DNA of 48,088 bases from Methanothrix sp. (GCA_026394555.1 JAPKXZ010000062.1:1-48088), one strand, 5' to 3'; positions 6,945 to 16,305 are shown, counted from the first letter of the stretch. The notes: generated from the letters alone by a model not told the origin. Made by a program: numbers and translations.

Positions 6945-7086
6945 ACGACATACGTTTATATAAAATTTCCCGCATTATTTTTTTCACTTTTTAAAAGCAG
7001 CGTAAATCTGGGCAGATTATACCCAAATATTTGTATTAGAGCAGGCATGAATTCATCAGGCAGACAATCAATAAATGAGGTTTCCC

Positions 7087-8403
7087 ATGATAAATGGCTA
7101 TCCACCTGGAAAAGAGGAATCACCAGCCAATCGTCTCCTCTCTGAAAAAAGCCCCTCCCTCCTTCAGCACGCCTTTAACCCCGTGCACTGGTACCCCTGG
7201 GGCGAAGAAGCCTTCCTGGCCGCGGCCAGAGAGGATAAACCCATCTTCCTCTCCGTGGGCTACTCCACCTGCCACTGGTGCCATGTCATGGCTCACGAGT
7301 CATTTGAGGACCCGGGCGTAGCCCGGCTTATGAACCAGACTTTCATCTGCATCAAAGTGGACCGGGAAGAGAGGCCGGACATAGACCAGATGTACATGAC
7401 TTTCGCGCAATCCATGACCGGCAGAGGCGGCTGGCCTCTTACTATTATTATGACCCCGGAGAAAAAGCCCTTCTTCGCCGCCACCTACATCCCCAAGACC
7501 GGGCGCGCTGGCCAGGCAGGAATGATAGAGATCATCCCCCGGATCAAAGAGCTCTGGGTGAAAAATAGAGATGAGCTTTTGGACTCAGCCGACCAGATTT
7601 TGGATTATCTCAAGCAGACACAAAGCCAGCCGCGAGCCCAGGCCGCGAATTTAGATGCAGCATTTCTTGCCCGTGCATACGCGGCCCTGGCCTCCATTTA
7701 CGACCCCCAAAACGGAGGGTTTGGCACGGCCCCCAAGTTTCCCACACCACATAATCTCTTCTTCCTGCTACGCTATTGGCATAGGAGCGGAGACAAACAA
7801 GCACTGCAAATGGTCGAGGCCACACTACAGGCCATGCGCAGGGGCGGGATCTACGATCAAGTGGGTTTTGGATTTCATAGATACTCAACGGATGGTCAGT
7901 GGCTTGTTCCCCATTTTGAAAAGATGCTCTATGACCAGGCGCTAATGGCTATAGCCTACACCGAAAGCTACCAGGCCACCGGAAAAGAGGAGTACGCCAG
8001 AACGGCACGCGAAATCCTGGATTATGTGCTGCGGGACATGACTGCCCCCCAGGGAGGCTTTTTCTCAGCGGAAGACGCAGACAGTGAGGGAGAGGAGGGC
8101 AAGTTCTATGTCTGGACGGCAGAGGAACTGAAAGAGACTCTAGATAAAGAGGAGTTCAAGCTCTTCATCCGGCTCTTCGATGTGCATGAGAGCGGAAACT
8201 TCGAGAAGGGAGGGAACATCCTCTGCCAGAGGTCAAATCTCATCGACGCCGCATCCGTCCTGAAGATGAGCGAGCCGGATCTCTATGAAGCTCTTTCTTG
8301 CCCGGGAGAAGAGAGTTCATCCTTCAAAGGACGACAAGATCCTCACCGACTGGAATGGACTCATGATCGCGGCCCTGGCCAAAGCCGCGCAGGCCCTGCC
8401 TGA
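7087..8403 (+). CDS. DUF255/thioredoxin-domain protein, 5' part of frameshifted gene
   Basis: This is the N-terminal part of the YyaL/SSP411-like family (DUF255 thioredoxin-like domain followed by an alpha/alpha toroid). Residues [19 protein letters not shown] and [14 protein letters not shown] are family hallmarks, and STCHWCHVM is the CxxC thioredoxin-type site. [12 protein letters not shown] and [15 protein letters not shown] are toroid motifs. I prefer the ATG at 7087 because a GAGG site ends 6 bases before it; an in-frame ATG at 7075 is also possible. Real similarity ends near 8287, where the frame shifts, and the last 38 or so residues are out-of-frame junk. The rest of the domain is encoded at 8285-9151. 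The function of the family is unproven. Confidence 0.8.
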
Positions 8404-9151
8404 GGCAAATGGCGCAAAGTATGCAAGAGCGGCAATAAAAGCGGCTGATTTTGTCCTGAAAGAGATGCAGACGACCAAAGGTCGACTGCTGCATCGTTAC
8501 CGGGGCGAGGCAGCCATTTATGCCAATCTCGATGATTATGCCTTCCTGATCTGGGGCCTCCTCGATCTTTACGAGACCGTTTTTGATGTCAAGTACCTGA
8601 AGGCGGCGTTGCAATTGAACCAGACTATGATGCGGCATTTCTGGGATGAGGATCTGGGCGGCTTCTTCTTTTCTGCTGATGATGCCGAGGCCCTATTGCT
8701 TCGCAAGAAGGAGTTTTATGATGGAGCGATTCCCTCGGGAAATTCCATTGCATTGCTTTGCCTTCTCCGGCTCATGCACCTATGTGGAGGGACGGAACTG
8801 GAAGAGCGAGCCCTGGATCTGGCGCGCGGCTTCGTTGCAGCAGGTGGCCAGCCTCTGGGACACTCCATGCTGTTTTGCTCCCTGGACTATTTGCTAGGAC
8901 CAGCATCCGAGATCGCACTACTGGGAAGTATGCAGGATGTCGGCATAATTGAGATGCTGCAAGCCTTACGATCTCGCTTTCTTCCGAATAAATCGGTCGT
9001 TCTGGTATGCGGAGAAGAGATTAGAGAGATTGTGCCATTCACAAAAAATTTGGTCCTCGTGGAGGGAAAAATAGTGGCCTACGTCTGCACTGATCATGTC
9101 TGCAGTCTTCCCGTAACAAGCCCGAAAGAGATGATGAAGCTATTCGCGTAG
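8285..9151 (+). CDS. DUF255/thioredoxin-domain protein, 3' part of frameshifted gene
   Basis: This frame continues the toroid domain of the preceding gene: [18 protein letters not shown], then [17 protein letters not shown], then [19 protein letters not shown], all typical of the C-terminal half of YyaL-type proteins (usual total length about 680 residues). Joining the halves as [13 protein letters not shown] would need two extra bases near 8288, so a two-base deletion (or one-base insertion) best explains the break. The ATG at 8285 is probably not a natural start. It could be a pseudogene, a programmed event or a sequencing or assembly error. Confidence 0.75.
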
Positions 9152-9335: not shown

Positions 9336-9989
9336 ATGAACAAACGAAGAGAGCACATTCCTAAGAAGGATATCATGTACACGTTGAAAGAAGATAACTC
9401 CCAATATATTGTAAATGAGAGTTACTTCTACAAGACCGAGCCGTACTACACTATAGTCAAGAACGAGAATGAAGGCATCAAAACCACGCCCAGTAGCAGC
9501 GATGTTCTGGATGCCTATATCGTCCCCATCTGTCTGGAGAAGGCGAAGCTGGCAGGTATCCCGGTCTGCGACTGGGTAATATCCAACCAGTACGTCTCGC
9601 TCCCGGCTATAGTCTACGGCTTGAACTACTTCTCCACGCCGTCCGATCACTTCTTGATCAGCGACCTGGAAGAAGCGAAGAAGGTCATCAAGCATGTCAC
9701 CAATCATGGCCGGTATCCCTTCTGCTATCAGAAGATAAGCGTCACCTCATCCGTGGCGAAATGCGTATCCATCTTCGGCAAGACCATAAACTGCTGTGAG
9801 CCTGCTAAATCGCTGGCGGAGAAGATCTATGAGGTCTTCCGGCTGCCGTTAGTGGAGGTAGTACTGGTCAAGGATGAGTCAGGCTGCCGATTATCTTCCC
9901 TGGCTCCGGTAAAATATTCGCAATTATCGAAGGATGAAACGGAAATGTTACAGGACCTTCTGGATAAGAGGGTGAGACGCTTTGAGTAA
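9336..9989 (+). CDS. RLAN-like (RimK-type ATP-grasp N-terminal) domain protein
   Basis: A 217-residue soluble protein. Its middle (KTEPYYTIVK, SSSDVLDAYIVPICLEKAKL) and its position directly before a RimK-type ATP-grasp resemble the RLAN domain that is normally fused to the N-terminus of such ligases. Here it is a separate gene overlapping the ligase by 8 bases, so translational coupling and a complex are likely. The start at 9336 has GGTGAT about 7 bases upstream. An ATG at 9375 with AAGGA just before it is a credible alternative (204 residues). It is the first gene of a four-gene operon. The family call is by context and partial motif, so moderate; the role (substrate selection or scaffolding) is inferred. 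Confidence 0.6.
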   Translation: MNKRREHIPKKDIMYTLKEDNSQYIVNESYFYKTEPYYTIVKNENEGIKTTPSSSDVLDAYIVPICLEKAKLAGIPVCDWVISNQYVSLPAIVYGLNYFSTPSDHFLISDLEEAKKVIKHVTNHGRYPFCYQKISVTSSVAKCVSIFGKTINCCEPAKSLAEKIYEVFRLPLVEVVLVKDESGCRLSSLAPVKYSQLSKDETEMLQDLLDKRVRRFE

Positions 9990-11001
9990 ACTAGGCATCT
10001 TCGTTAATCGACAGACGTTAAGCAGCTCTTTACAGCTCACGGCCGTGGTAAAATGCCGGGACGTGGCTGAGAGCATGGGCCACACTGCCGAGTTCATATT
10101 TCCCGTGGACATAAAGAAAATACCCAGGCTGGATGCGCTCTTCATTCGTGCCAACACCGATCCCATGAATATCACCTATGTGGCGGCCAGGATGGCGCAA
10201 ATGTACGGCGTACCGGTGATAGACGATCCCAGCTCTATCCAGATCTGTGCCGACAAAATCAACATGTACATGCACCTCATGAAGAAGAATGTCTCCATGC
10301 CCAGGACTAAGTTTCTAAAGAAGAAGGAGCTGGATGAGGTTCTAGCCGCACAACTCTTTGAGGAGCTGGGCATGCCCCTGGTGCTAAAAGAGCCATCCAC
10401 GTCCTTCTCAGTCCGGGTGGAGAAGGTCTCATCGGTAGACGAGCTATTGAAGATCGCCAGGAGATTCTTCAAGCTCTCCGACTGGATTGTGGTGCAGGAG
10501 TACATCGAGAGCAGGTTTGACTGGAGAGTGGGTGTCATCAACGGGCAGCTACTCTATGCCTGTCGCTACATCATCCCCTCGGAGACCTTCAAGATCCAGG
10601 CTTCCGTGAACGGCCACATCGTCTACTGCGATGTAGAGAGCGTGCCGGCCGATCAGGTTCCGCCCGAGGTTATTGAGCTGGGACGCGAGGCAGGCAATGC
10701 CATTGGCAAAGGAATGTATGGTGTGGACATCAAAGAGAGCAACGGAAAGCTCTACGTCATTGAGGTAAATGACAATCCCTCTCTGGATGGTGGCGAGGAT
10801 GCCCATTATCCGGACATGTTCCAAAAGATCATCTCCTATCTGATGACCGGAGACGCGTGCAGCTATGCCGATGAGCTTTCCGATAAGATCTCCCATCCGC
10901 ACGACTTTGAAGGTGAGTATGGCCTGGGAGCTGCCGCCGGCATGGCCAATCCATCTGCCCTGGCAGAAAATGAGGTCTGCTCCTACAAGATTGATTTCTA
11001 A
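9982..11001 (+). CDS. RimK-type ATP-grasp carboxylate-amine ligase
   Basis: A 339-residue ATP-grasp enzyme. VIDDPSSIQICADKINMY opens the fold, MPLVLKEPSTSFSVRV is the ATP-binding lysine strand, IVVQEYIESRFDWRVGVING is the central grasp, and YVIEVNDNPSLDGG carries the Glu/Asn metal ligands. Such enzymes form amide or peptide bonds through an acyl phosphate made from ATP. The start is TTG at 9982, preceded by GGTGAG at good spacing and overlapping the RLAN-like gene. The downstream partners (YkgJ-like and GCS2-like genes) fit the peptide-ligase operons described in bacteria by comparative genomics. The substrate is unknown. Confidence 0.85.
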   Translation: MSKLGIFVNRQTLSSSLQLTAVVKCRDVAESMGHTAEFIFPVDIKKIPRLDALFIRANTDPMNITYVAARMAQMYGVPVIDDPSSIQICADKINMYMHLMKKNVSMPRTKFLKKKELDEVLAAQLFEELGMPLVLKEPSTSFSVRVEKVSSVDELLKIARRFFKLSDWIVVQEYIESRFDWRVGVINGQLLYACRYIIPSETFKIQASVNGHIVYCDVESVPADQVPPEVIELGREAGNAIGKGMYGVDIKESNGKLYVIEVNDNPSLDGGEDAHYPDMFQKIISYLMTGDACSYADELSDKISHPHDFEGEYGLGAAAGMANPSALAENEVCSYKIDF

Positions 11002-11016
11002 AGAGATGAGAATCTG

Positions 11017-11508
11017 ATGGAAGATTACCTGTGTGAAGCCATAAGCCAGGCCTGCAGCGAATGCCATCTGGATGGAGGCTGCTGCTTTGAGGCGAGACCC
11101 CCCTTAAGCCGGGAGAGAATAGACATACTGCGGGAAAACGGCGTGGCAGAGGACGCTGTAGAGTTTGCCGGGTACATGAGGCTACGCCTGAAGCAGGATG
11201 GGTTTTGCGTGCTCTTTCAGAATGGTAAATGCAGCATTCACTCCATCAAGCCTGAGACCTGCATAGCCGGACCCTTTACCTTCGATATCAAGGACAATGT
11301 CCTGCAGATCTTCCTTAAGAGAGAGAGCATCTGCCCCATGGTCCGATTTCTCAAGGCCAATCGAAAAGCCTATGACGGACTATTCGAGACCTCTGTGGAG
11401 AATATCATGCATCTGGTAAACAGCGTTCCCGCTTCAGAGATGGCGGAGATTTTGAAGATCGAGGAGCCGGAGACGGATCTTGTGGCACAGATCCAACTTT
11501 CCGACTAA
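11017..11508 (+). CDS. YkgJ-type cysteine-cluster protein
   Basis: This 163-residue protein has the zinc or Fe-S type cysteine pattern of the YkgJ family. CSECHLDGGCC lies near residues 13-23, followed by FCVLFQNGKCSIHSIKPETC, whose C-x5-IHxxKPxxC part is the family signature, and a late Cys in ESICPMVRFL. These proteins bind a metal or cluster, and most have no proven function. It starts 16 bases after the ATP-grasp gene and stops 3 bases before the next, so it belongs to the same transcript. It may be a metal- or redox-dependent partner of the ligases, or modify or protect the product. That is inference. Confidence 0.75.
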   Translation: MEDYLCEAISQACSECHLDGGCCFEARPPLSRERIDILRENGVAEDAVEFAGYMRLRLKQDGFCVLFQNGKCSIHSIKPETCIAGPFTFDIKDNVLQIFLKRESICPMVRFLKANRKAYDGLFETSVENIMHLVNSVPASEMAEILKIEEPETDLVAQIQLSD

Positions 11509-11511
11509 GTT

Positions 11512-12672
11512 ATGAAAAAAGCAATGCATAAGGCGCTTAGAGCTTCATCGCCCATAGGAACGGAGCACGAGTACTCCATAAATGACAAAAAATGCAGGCC
11601 TCTGGCCATTTCCGACCGGATAATCGAGAGGATCGCCGGAAAGGTGCAGCACGAGGTGGCTTTTGGGGGGATACTGGTCTCCAAGGAGCTGCAAAAGCAT
11701 GCTATCGAGCTGATCCCAGCCAGGCCGGGGAACCTTTTCTTTTTGGAAAGCAATCTCTACCAGGGCCTATCTGAGCTGTACCGGGCCACCAATCATGAGT
11801 ACGGCTTTATGGGTCTGGGAATGCATCCGCTGCTGAAATTGGATGAAACGACCTACTGGGATCATGATGAACAGGAGTATTATCAGGCATACGACCGGTT
11901 GTTCAATATCAAGCAGCATGGCTGGCTTAATATTCAGGCTCTGCAGATCAACATTCCCTATGCAGGCAAGGAGGAGCTGGTGGCTATGTTCAACAAGATT
12001 CGCTCGCTCATGCCCTATCTCGTCGCCGTGTCCGCTTCCTCGCCCATGGTGGAGGGAAAGCTCAATTCTTACATGGACAACCGGCTGGTTTATTACCGGC
12101 AAAACCAGGCGGCCATACCTTCGATCTGCCATGATATTCTGCCGGAAAAGCTGGAGAGCGTGCGTGATTATGTGCAGATCAACCGGCAGATCTACTCTGA
12201 GCTGAAAAAATGCAAAGCGGAGATTCTCTGCAAAGAGTGGGTCAATTCCAGAGGCGTGATTGTGCGCTTTACGAGAAAGTGCCTGGAGGTCAAAGCCATC
12301 GATGAGCAGGAATGCCTGCATTCGGACATGGCGTTCTCGGCTTTTTTGCTGGCGCTGCTTCGAACCGACCTTGCGCTGGAGGAGGATGAGAGCACTCTTC
12401 TGGCCATGCTGGAAGATGCCATGCGCGGCGGCGTAGCCGGGATGCGGCCGGAGCTGGAGAGGCTGCTCGCCCAGGCGGAAAAGAGCGCAACCATTGAAGA
12501 GAAGCGATATCTGCCCCTGGTGGCAAAAAGGATCGAGCAGGGCAGCCTGGCGGAGATCATGGTGCAAAAGCTAAAGGAGACGAACGGCAGGATCGAACCG
12601 ATACTGGAGCAGATGCAGTGGTGCCTGAAGGAGAACCGGCCCTATTCTGCAGAGCCGGCCAGATGCGGATAG
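11512..12672 (+). CDS. glutamate-cysteine ligase 2 (GCS2)-like carboxylate-amine ligase
   Basis: A 386-residue member of the GCS2/YbdK-like branch of the glutamine-synthetase-fold ligases. The N-terminus has SSPIGTEHEYSIND, in which GxEhE supplies metal-binding acids. HAIELIPARPG and WLNIQALQINIPY follow the family order, and SASSPMVEGKLNSYMDNR is the conserved substrate-site segment with the SP(M/Y) and R motifs. Members join an amino acid to a carboxylate using ATP. It is the last gene of the operon and has no clear own ribosome binding site, which fits coupled translation. Together with the ATP-grasp gene it gives two separate amide-forming enzymes in one operon, suggesting stepwise synthesis of a small peptide-like compound. 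It could also act in true gamma-glutamylcysteine synthesis. Confidence 0.8.
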   Translation: MKKAMHKALRASSPIGTEHEYSINDKKCRPLAISDRIIERIAGKVQHEVAFGGILVSKELQKHAIELIPARPGNLFFLESNLYQGLSELYRATNHEYGFMGLGMHPLLKLDETTYWDHDEQEYYQAYDRLFNIKQHGWLNIQALQINIPYAGKEELVAMFNKIRSLMPYLVAVSASSPMVEGKLNSYMDNRLVYYRQNQAAIPSICHDILPEKLESVRDYVQINRQIYSELKKCKAEILCKEWVNSRGVIVRFTRKCLEVKAIDEQECLHSDMAFSAFLLALLRTDLALEEDESTLLAMLEDAMRGGVAGMRPELERLLAQAEKSATIEEKRYLPLVAKRIEQGSLAEIMVQKLKETNGRIEPILEQMQWCLKENRPYSAEPARCG

Positions 12673-12951: not shown

Positions 12952-13143
12952 ATGAGTGCTTCACAAGTCATTGAATGCATATACGAAGAGGGCGTCTTCA
13001 AGCCTTTGCATGAAGTTAAAATTAAAGAAGGCACAAAATTAAAAATCAAGGTGGAAAAGGTAGACTTATCTGAATATCGCGGTATGTTTGGCAAGGCCTC
13101 CGCAGAAATACTTCAAGAACTGGAAGGAGATGCCTACCTTTGA
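12952..13143 (+). CDS. AF2212/DUF104-type antitoxin
   Basis: This 63-residue protein has the DUF104 pattern: IECIYEEGVFKPLHEV near the start, then EGTKLKIKVEK, a small beta-barrel that partners PIN-domain toxins in archaea. A GGAGATG lies about 10 bases before the ATG, and AT-rich TATA-like sequence lies near 12910-12930. The stop codon overlaps the start of the PIN frame, as in normal VapBC-like operons. Because the PIN gene is interrupted, the antitoxin may now stand alone. Compare the homologous intact pair at 22123-22808. Confidence 0.75.
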   Translation: MSASQVIECIYEEGVFKPLHEVKIKEGTKLKIKVEKVDLSEYRGMFGKASAEILQELEGDAYL

Positions 13144-13592
13144 TTTTCGTCGATACAAATGTTATTTATAATATTATATTTGAAACCATATTTACAGACC
13201 GTGCTCTAAGATTCATAGAAACATGCCAGGAACTTGTAACATAAGCAACCGTTATCCATGAATTGATCTATGTGTCCATCCGCGATCTCTGCGAAGAACG
13301 CTATGGAACAAAAAATAATTCCTCGTATCGGAAAATAATAGCGACTAAAGGATATGCCCCATTTCAAAAAGATATTGATCGTCTTTTCCAATTTGTCGAG
13401 AACAGCAGCATTTCTCTTATTCCCGTTAATAATGATCTGGAAGATTGGAAAGAGATTTTGTTAAAATACAAGCTATTGCCCTACGATGCTCTGATAGCTT
13501 CAACCTGTATGTCTAATGGGATAACGAAGATCGCTACTTTCGATAGGGATTTTAATAGAGTAGATTTTTTGAAGATAGTCGATATGACCTAA
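13140..13592 (+). pseudogene. PIN-domain toxin interrupted by a stop codon
   Basis: A full-length PIN ribonuclease frame (150 codons) starts at TTG 13140: LIFVDTNVIYNI carries the first catalytic Asp, ATVIHELIYV the Glu, YDALIASTC the third acid and IATFDRDF the fourth. Codon 35 is TAA (13242-13244), where the context LVT-stop-ATVIHEL suggests a former Ser. Re-initiation at TTG 13263 would lose the first Asp and the active site. The gene is therefore probably dead. It overlaps the DUF104 antitoxin stop, which fits one former operon. Confidence 0.8.
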
Positions 13593-14336: not shown

Positions 14337-14458
14337 TTCAGTCTCCTCCGTCAGAGCGGTCGCATAAAATCCGTTTGATACATGTTAAGGATTTCGAAGA
14401 GATTACTTTCGCCCCGCACGCATATCGGTTATAAATCCGATTGCACGTTGTAACTACA

Positions 14459-15679
14459 ATGGTCACCCTGGAGAAGATCGCCCATCTGGCAGAGGAGTGC
14501 AAATTCGACTCAATGGGCCCGGCCAATAGTCCCGCCGTGGTGGACGTGGACGAAAAGAAGCTTAGCACCCTGGGAGAAGGCACGCGCCATGACGTCTGCG
14601 CGTCTACCTTCTCGCCAAGGGAAACGCCCCTGCCCGGAATTTGCCACGCCTTTACAAAGGACGGCAGATGCGTCAGCCTCTTCAAGACCCTTTACACCAA
14701 CCACTGCACCCATCAGTGCAGCTACTGCACCAATGCCGCGAACTGCAGCAATAAATCCAAAGCCTTCTCCTATACCCCGGAAGAGCTGGCCAAGATAACC
14801 CTTTCCCTCTACCGGTCGAATTATATTGAAGGGCTCTTTCTCAGCTCCGGCGCGGGCCGAGATGAGGATCGTGTCACGGAAAGAATGGTAGAGACCGTGC
14901 GGCTCTTGCGCCAAAAGCATGCTTTTTCCGGATACATTCATCTCAAGGTCCTGCCTGGCTCTGCGCGCGCGCACATCCAGGAAGCCATGGAGCTGGCGGA
15001 TCGGGTCAGCATAAATTTAGAGGCGGCATCTGCCTCGCACATGAGCGAGATGTGTGCCACCAAGAGCTACGAGAACGATATCCTGCAAAGGCAAAGATAC
15101 ATCCGGGATATACTATCCGATAGCGCCAAGAGCTCCAAGGCCATTCTGCCTGCCGGCCAGACTACGCAACTTGTGGTAGGTGCCGCTGGCGAGAGCGATG
15201 AGGAGATCTTCAAGAGAGTTCTTTATGAGTACAAAGAAATTGGGGTGAAGAGGGCCTACTACAGTGCATTTTCCCCTCAGCGGGGCACACCATTTGAGAA
15301 CAGGCAGGCCCAGCCGCTCTGGCGAGAGCACCGCCTCTACCAGATGGACTGGCTCTATCGTGTGTATCACTTTCAGCCCAGGGAGATCCATCATGCCTTT
15401 AATGAGAATGGCTTTCTTAGCAACGCCGATCCCAAGATGGCCATCGCCAGGGAGTATATGGACAAACCCCTGGACCCCAATACGGCTGCATTCCGGGAAC
15501 TGCTGAGGGTGCCGGGCATCGGCCCCAAGAGCGCGCAAAAGATCGTGGCCTTCCGCAAAAGGCAGCCAATTGTTGCTAAAGCAGAGCTGGCGGCCATGGG
15601 CATTCGCATCAAGAGAGCCTGCCCCTTTCTCAAGATCAACGGCTGGAGAGATACAACTCTGGAGATGTGGCAGGCGTGA
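14459..15679 (+). CDS. radical SAM protein of the putative DNA modification/repair family
   Basis: The 406-residue product has the radical SAM cluster motif CTHQCSYC (C-x3-C-x2-C) near residue 83. A strongly conserved lead-in (KLSTLGEGTRHDVCASTF, then FKTLYTNHCTHQC) and YSAFSPQRGTPFEN are typical of the radical SAM family found beside uracil-DNA-glycosylase-like genes. The C-terminus carries a helix-hairpin-helix, LLRVPGIGPKSAQKIVAFRK, suggesting nucleic-acid binding. I chose ATG 14459 because the conserved MVTLEKIAHLAEECKFDS begins there; a TTG at 14441 is in frame. It overlaps the next gene by 13 bases. The reaction is unknown. Confidence 0.85.
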   Translation: MVTLEKIAHLAEECKFDSMGPANSPAVVDVDEKKLSTLGEGTRHDVCASTFSPRETPLPGICHAFTKDGRCVSLFKTLYTNHCTHQCSYCTNAANCSNKSKAFSYTPEELAKITLSLYRSNYIEGLFLSSGAGRDEDRVTERMVETVRLLRQKHAFSGYIHLKVLPGSARAHIQEAMELADRVSINLEAASASHMSEMCATKSYENDILQRQRYIRDILSDSAKSSKAILPAGQTTQLVVGAAGESDEEIFKRVLYEYKEIGVKRAYYSAFSPQRGTPFENRQAQPLWREHRLYQMDWLYRVYHFQPREIHHAFNENGFLSNADPKMAIAREYMDKPLDPNTAAFRELLRVPGIGPKSAQKIVAFRKRQPIVAKAELAAMGIRIKRACPFLKINGWRDTTLEMWQA

Positions 15680-16305
15680 AGATTCCGGACAACTTCCTCT
15701 ACTACCTCTCTTTGCATGAGGACTGTAATGAGAGGCTTCTTGCCAGAGCAGGGAATCTCACACCAGAGGAGCTGGAAGTTTGCATTCATCCAGAAGTTGC
15801 CCGCATAAAGAAGATGGTCTTTGCTGTTTTGGGAGAGGCGCACCGGATGAAGGCATTTGTGAGATTGCAGCCCCTGGGCGCACGAGTGCTTTATGGCTTT
15901 TTCAAGCCCAGGCACAAAATTGAAGAGCACATCTGCGATTACTTCGCCCGCAGGAACACCGGAATAATAGTAGTACTGGGAAACGGCGGCGAGAGCTGGA
16001 TCTCGCTATGTCGGGAGGGCAGAATCTGGCGGAATCATAGTGGAGGAATGGCCATAGCCCTGGAGAGGCTAAAGTCGGCCTTGCATTGCAGCGAGGATGG
16101 ATCAAGCGATGATGGATCCGGCGAGGATCTGGCCAATGTGGAGGGCCTCTGGCAGGTCTACTACGACAGCCAGTACTGCCCGGAAAGAAAGAATTTGGCG
16201 GCATTTAAGAGGCACATGCCCAGAAGAGATCAGGAGGCTGCGGGACTGCGGCTGGTGCAAAATAAGAAAAATGTCACCCTCGATAACTTCTCAAGCGGAG
16301 AGTAA
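15667..16305 (+). CDS. DUF4130-domain protein, partner of the radical SAM enzyme
   Basis: This 212-residue protein resembles the DUF4130 (probable DNA metabolism) family that is co-inherited with the radical SAM gene just upstream. VFAVLGEAHRMKAFVRLQP and the later VEGLWQVYYDSQYCPERKN, KRHMPRRDQ are the recognised segments. In many bacteria this domain is fused to a uracil-DNA-glycosylase domain; here it ends without one. The start is GTG 15667 (or GTG 15676), overlapping the radical SAM gene, so the pair is surely co-translated. It ends 16 bases before a convergent gene. Confidence 0.75.
   Translation: MAGVKIPDNFLYYLSLHEDCNERLLARAGNLTPEELEVCIHPEVARIKKMVFAVLGEAHRMKAFVRLQPLGARVLYGFFKPRHKIEEHICDYFARRNTGIIVVLGNGGESWISLCREGRIWRNHSGGMAIALERLKSALHCSEDGSSDDGSGEDLANVEGLWQVYYDSQYCPERKNLAAFKRHMPRRDQEAAGLRLVQNKKNVTLDNFSSGE

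Follow-up and report, generated by a model that had tools for sequence, protein, structure and literature searches.

What do four closely packed genes of Methanothrix, two of them with the look of amide-forming ligases, actually make? The question is raised by positions 9336-12672 of the plus strand in a stretch of 48,088 nt, here called the window, which belongs to an archaeal genome of 2.53 Mb with its relatives in Methanothrix (Methanotrichaceae). The operon is composed of four open reading frames, with one overlap of 8 bases followed by gaps of 15 and 3 bases, and their coordinates match exactly the spacing given by the original prediction, made from the sequence of this locus:

9336..9989, plus strand: RLAN protein, 217 aa (PF14401, 36.2 bits), predicted to be a degenerate, catalytically dead ATP-grasp subunit
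9982..11001, plus strand: RimK-like ATP-grasp ligase, 339 aa, TTG start (PF08443, 44 bits), with LysX, ArgX and RimK as relatives
11017..11508, plus strand: YkgJ/CxxCxxCC cysteine-cluster protein, 163 aa (PF03692, 38.3 bits), predicted to bind Zn or an Fe-S cluster
11512..12672, plus strand: GCS2 (glutamine-synthetase-fold) carboxylate-amine ligase, 386 aa (PF04107, 138.5 bits)

In profile search all four proteins exceed the Pfam gathering cut-offs (25 bits for RLAN, 21 for RimK, 23 for CxxCxxCC and 21 for GCS2), which bears out both the RLAN identity proposed for the 217-residue protein (36.2 against 25 bits) and the proposed company of two amide-forming enzymes with a cysteine-cluster protein. 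The RLAN and GCS2 genes are the sole members of their families found in this genome.

The surroundings of the operon have features of their own. A gene for a YyaL/DUF255 thioredoxin-fold protein lies upstream at 7075-9151 (plus strand), as it does in about 30 Methanotrichaceae loci, and is split by a frameshift near 8270-8285; its relatives are single reading frames of about 700 aa, and the split may be real or an assembly error. Just downstream of the operon an AF2212-like antitoxin and PIN-domain toxin pair occupies 12952-13592 (plus strand), followed by a radical SAM/HhH protein and a DUF4130 protein (14441-16302, plus strand), a pair kept in place in several Methanotrichaceae.

According to our analysis, the four genes are a conserved archaeal set. 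An ortholog of the ATP-grasp gene was found in 32 of 37 sampled Methanotrichaceae genomes, at 69-96% identity, and the order RLAN, ATP-grasp, YkgJ, GCS2 is kept throughout the fetched loci of this family, bar one contig that ends early. A scan in which each GTDB species was represented by one genome yielded 118 relatives of GCS2, of which we kept 80; these come from Methanothrix, Methanoregula, Archaeoglobaceae, Bathyarchaeota, Methanoperedens, Methanomassiliicoccales and one Asgard archaeon. All four genes are present in 55 of these 80 fetched loci. Beyond Methanotrichaceae the full set extends to Methanoregulaceae, Archaeoglobaceae and Bathyarchaeia, with rare occurrences in Asgard; the order RLAN-RimK-YkgJ-GCS2 is that of methanogens, and in Archaeoglobi and Bathyarchaeia the genes run RLAN-RimK-GCS2-YkgJ or form two adjacent pairs of opposite orientation. 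Outside its own phylum the module is rare, being met in 40 of 201 genomes of the class Bathyarchaeia, in 2 of 227 of the Asgard phylum and in 2 of 194 of the phylum of Methanomassiliicoccales.

Among 295 genomes of the phylum Halobacteriota, GCS2 was found in 37 and RLAN, by Pfam, in 35; six genomes with GCS2 and without a Pfam RLAN match turned out to possess RLAN once their loci were read. RLAN is in this way present in 36 of the 37 GCS2-positive genomes and absent from 253 of the 258 others (Fisher p about 1e-39, a value inflated by the relatedness of the genomes). Six genomes break the pattern: RLAN-RimK occurs without GCS2 in four that are Methanocella-like and in one other, and in the sixth, 73% complete, GCS2 is present and no RLAN was found. 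The operon is more than chance, as the same order in the inspected relatives and the strong phylum-wide co-occurrence demonstrate: the first gene does match RLAN, and the survey of neighbourhoods across archaea that had been proposed for this locus finds the four families together recurrently.

The original prediction had also drawn attention to the split of RLAN from the ligase, given that in bacteria the two are usually fused. Indeed, they are not on one chain here, being encoded by two genes in different frames with the 8-base overlap, and the bacterial relatives that we checked are fusions, including the nearest plasmid-borne proteins. The split is, however, shared with other archaea and represents their usual state, since RLAN is separate in all 55 loci that hold the four genes and fused in none; one Thermoplasmatota genome carries a fused RLAN-RimK together with GCS2. 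In Legionella the RLAN-RimK fusion is directly followed by GCS2, 36% identical to that of the window, and then by N-formylglutamate amidohydrolase (FGase). In L. adelaidensis, for instance, the fusion (WP_232048554, PF14401 plus PF08443) has a RimK part about 36% identical to the window's protein, and the adjoining GCS2 (WP_058462521), with FGase beside it, reproduces the adjacency seen in archaea. In Azospirillum the fusion is preceded by a GNAT-C39 peptidase protein. The bacterial systems thus differ from the archaeal ones in the fusion itself and in the partner, which is FGase or the GNAT-C39 peptidase and not YkgJ. A fusion with an adjoining GCS2 in bacteria suggests that the ligase pair probably predates the archaeal split and that the YkgJ partner is an archaeal feature.

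The role of RLAN itself is not evident from profiles. The window's protein aligns only to positions 81-149 of PF14401, the second half of the profile; its Methanocella-like and Archaeoglobi orthologs cover positions of about 11-140, and among solved structures neither RLAN nor YkgJ has a sequence match. An AlphaFold2 model of RLAN (alignment of 47 related sequences, pLDDT 89.8, pTM 0.85) was compared with the PDB by Foldseek, and the top 50 matches are all ATP-grasp enzymes, led by ArgX, PsnB, RimK and LysX, with E values down to 5e-9 and query TM-scores of 0.5-0.6. Profile comparison by hhalign, made without the row of the fused Legionella protein, gives RLAN against its RimK-like partner a score of 30.6, to be set against at most 21.3 for 60 column-shuffled profiles, 17.6 for the reversed one and about 13 for the unrelated partners in the operon; the hhalign probability of 17% makes the sequence-only link a weak one. 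In the register of this weak alignment RLAN from residue 33 pairs with the RimK-like protein from residue 62, and position 94, opposite the ATP-binding K136, is Y, F or L instead of the catalytic lysine; in the same register residues 187-191, opposite E261 and N263, are non-acidic, and the metal-ligand acids are absent. Most of the N-terminal pre-ATP-grasp part is missing from RLAN as well. Because of the fold match, the lost catalytic residues and the reduced pre-ATP-grasp part, we suggest from the predicted structure and the weak sequence signal that RLAN is probably a degenerate, or pseudo-, ATP-grasp subunit.

The partner looks like an intact enzyme: K136, D249, E261 and N263 of the RimK-like protein are invariant in 28 sequences from archaea and Legionella. 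It scores, nevertheless, below the cut-off of the RimK alpha-L-glutamate ligase subfamily (TIGR00768, 87.6 against 143.4) and under those of the LysX (73.6 against 275.6), MptN (69.9 against 350), CofF (38.6 against 300) and RimK (30.8 against 331) equivalogs. GCS2 is likewise under the cut-offs of all named glutamate-cysteine ligase and YbdK models (44.6 against 176.4 bits at best). Neither ligase reaches the cut-off of any named NCBIfam model, so that their families do not reveal a specific reaction, and in neither of them did we identify a residue that would read out the amine. The AlphaFold2 model of GCS2 (pLDDT 92.4) is matched by Foldseek to YbdK and plant glutamate-cysteine ligase at E values of 1e-13 to 1e-15, and the protein keeps the GTEHE and SP..EGK motifs. 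Taken with the intact ATP-grasp motif of the RimK-like protein, this fold and these motifs indicate that the operon likely carries out two ATP-dependent amide-forming steps. YkgJ is conserved within the operon across the relatives; we considered it as a LysW-like carrier and set this aside, as its C-terminus ends variably and without a conserved terminal Glu.

Several known systems are near to the module and none is identical to it. With the RimK / LysX / ArgX (LysW-dependent) ATP-grasp ligases the RimK-like protein shares the ATP-grasp fold and the catalytic motif, judged by sequence, and RLAN shares the fold; the archaeal module differs in missing the equivalog and subfamily cut-offs and in adding a putatively dead subunit and the GCS2 and YkgJ partners. 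GCS2 has in common with YbdK and plant-type glutamate-cysteine ligases the fold (Foldseek E 2.5e-15 and 1e-13) and the two motifs, and differs from them by an identity of 14-16%, scores below the named-family cut-offs and archaeal clades of its own. The amidoligase systems of Iyer et al. 2009 resemble ours in that they reportedly also comprise neighbourhoods of ATP-grasp and GCS-type ligases, with peptides or modified amino acids as the predicted products. In the literature we found no functional study for RLAN, for RimK with GCS2 or YkgJ, or for an ATP-grasp with deoxyhypusine synthase, and a paper on graspetides contains no RLAN. The module is a variant of the RLAN-RimK/GCS2 amidoligase kind, real, conserved and uncharacterised.

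Which substrates it uses may be suggested by the neighbouring genes. Of the functional links that these show, the one that recurs most often, in about five lineages, is with genes of polyamine and hypusine metabolism (the deoxyhypusine synthase, or DHS, family, arginine decarboxylase, agmatinase). DHS-family genes stand beside the module in two lineages of Bathyarchaeia, in Asgard, in one Archaeoglobi genome of the comparison that we take, as a lead, to be A. fulgidus, and in another lineage of Archaeoglobales. With about two DHS-family genes per genome, it is unlikely that they would adjoin the module by chance in five lineages out of roughly a dozen, keeping in mind that the lineage count and the neighbourhood span were set after the data had been seen. 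RLAN-RimK is followed on the same strand by deoxyhypusine synthase in 18 Bathyarchaeia loci, directly in 14 of them, and this run holds even where GCS2 sits elsewhere. In another Bathyarchaeia lineage, which is without RLAN, GCS2 is near a pyruvoyl arginine decarboxylase, agmatinase and a DHS paralog. This paralog (PRK00805 above cut-off), which is also the DHS-family gene beside the module in Asgard, the putative A. fulgidus and the other Archaeoglobales lineage, is present in 30 of the 37 genomes with GCS2 and in 64 of the 258 without; for the Archaeoglobaceae-like family (f7) the corresponding figures are 10 of 12 and 2 of 36. Kinship of the genomes makes p-values for such associations too small. 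Module and paralog do not always go together: Methanoregula-type genomes carry the former alone, and in a sister family (f3) many genomes carry only the latter.

The same neighbourhoods offer further observations. Two convergent DHS-family genes lie beside RLAN-RimK in Bathyarchaeia (loci L086, L177-L180, L184, L187, L189, L191, L193-L198 and L204). In Archaeoglobi the PRK00805 paralog is likewise paired with arginine decarboxylase; it may represent a distinct polyamine enzyme. In the Bathyarchaeia polyamine cluster (L149 4039-6849; L200; L202) a 174-aa protein with no Pfam or NCBIfam match is encoded between arginine decarboxylase and GCS2. In Archaeoglobi and one methanogen family the module shares a tight operon with a transporter of DASS/ArsB type, an arrangement that suits a small anionic metabolite. 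The Methanotrichaceae loci have no polyamine gene, no such transporter and no CofE nearby.

From the computed gene set, families, conservation, co-occurrence, RLAN fold match and lost catalytic residues we propose, with a probability of somewhat under one half (roughly 0.45), that the operon encodes a heteromeric pathway of two amidoligases making a small glutamyl conjugate of an amine, perhaps of a polyamine. The dead RLAN would pair with the active RimK-like ATP-grasp, like the two halves of the fused bacterial protein. GCS2 would use ATP to phosphorylate a carboxylate, most likely the gamma-carboxylate of glutamate, and join it to an amine, and the RLAN/RimK pair would attach a further amino acid via an acyl-phosphate; the cysteine-cluster protein would bind Zn or an Fe-S cluster and assist, perhaps as a sensor, carrier or acceptor. 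We infer in this scheme the RLAN-RimK complex, the order of reactions and glutamate as the donor, and likewise the polyamine acceptor, which is its weakest step. A polyamine or agmatine derivative is the best candidate for the amine, a choice that we nevertheless hold to be doubtful and treat as a hypothesis, because none of the recurrent neighbours is near the module in Methanotrichaceae. It also counts against the scheme that Methanocella-like genomes retain RLAN-RimK without GCS2. A bolder version appears unlikely to us: here a dead RLAN would be obligately heterodimeric with the RimK-like protein, and the products of the module would be glutamyl-polyamine (or agmatine) conjugates of an undescribed class, connected with the hypusine/polyamine pathway.

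The same neighbours can be read in favour of protein modification, RLAN/RimK adding amino acids to a protein of translation, aIF5A or a ribosomal one, with YkgJ or GCS2 supplying or trimming the tag. RimK adds amino acids to ribosomal protein S6, and aIF5A is the substrate of true deoxyhypusine synthase, with which the Bathyarchaeia RLAN-RimK is found in one run; moreover, the nearest solved structures are those of RimK, LysX and ArgX. Ribosomal protein S19e is the next conserved downstream gene in three Methanocella-like genomes, but at a distance varying from 166 bases to 1.8 kb. The module, however, has a patchy distribution, unlike the universal aIF5A and ribosomal proteins, the Archaeoglobi operon contains an organic-anion-type transporter, and GCS2 without RLAN keeps company in one lineage with small-molecule polyamine genes, so that we regard this explanation as improbable.

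Synthesis of a thiol, GCS2 making gamma-glutamylcysteine and the ATP-grasp adding a second residue to yield a glutathione-like compound, would employ the same two enzyme folds as glutathione synthesis, with GCS2 nearest in fold to YbdK and glutamate-cysteine ligase, and redox neighbours do exist: the thioredoxin-fold YyaL in Methanotrichaceae, and a flavodiiron protein and a hemerythrin-domain protein in one Bathyarchaeia lineage. They are, however, lineage-specific, a thiol-reductase partner recurs nowhere, and no NCBIfam model of gamma-glutamylcysteine ligase or glutathione synthase reaches its cut-off. The original guess of a thiol- or metal-related metabolite gained no positive support, the neighbours being more often of the polyamine/hypusine kind, and we consider thiol synthesis quite unlikely. 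Still less probable is that the ligases lengthen a glutamate tail of F420, methanofuran or a methanopterin. The archaeal RimK relatives MptN and CofF perform such chemistry, CofE (F420 gamma-glutamyl ligase) neighbours the module in one lineage of Bathyarchaeia, and in one of Archaeoglobales it lies close upstream of RLAN, accompanied by an ATP-grasp with a distant likeness to MfnD; the MptN and CofF models, though, are far under cut-off, most lineages have no cofactor gene nearby, and RLAN-RimK with GCS2 is carried by Legionella, which is not known to use any of the three cofactors.

The match of RLAN to the fold of RimK, LysX and ArgX without their catalytic residues is a new structural reading. 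Should RLAN prove to be a pseudo-enzyme subunit, a domain that Pfam names only for its position would acquire a fold and a role open to testing, and the bacterial fusions would be tandems of a dead and an active ATP-grasp. In Methanothrix and its relatives, which are major producers of methane, a conserved operon encodes a chemistry to which no product has been assigned, one for which the association with polyamine genes supplies concrete candidate substrates.
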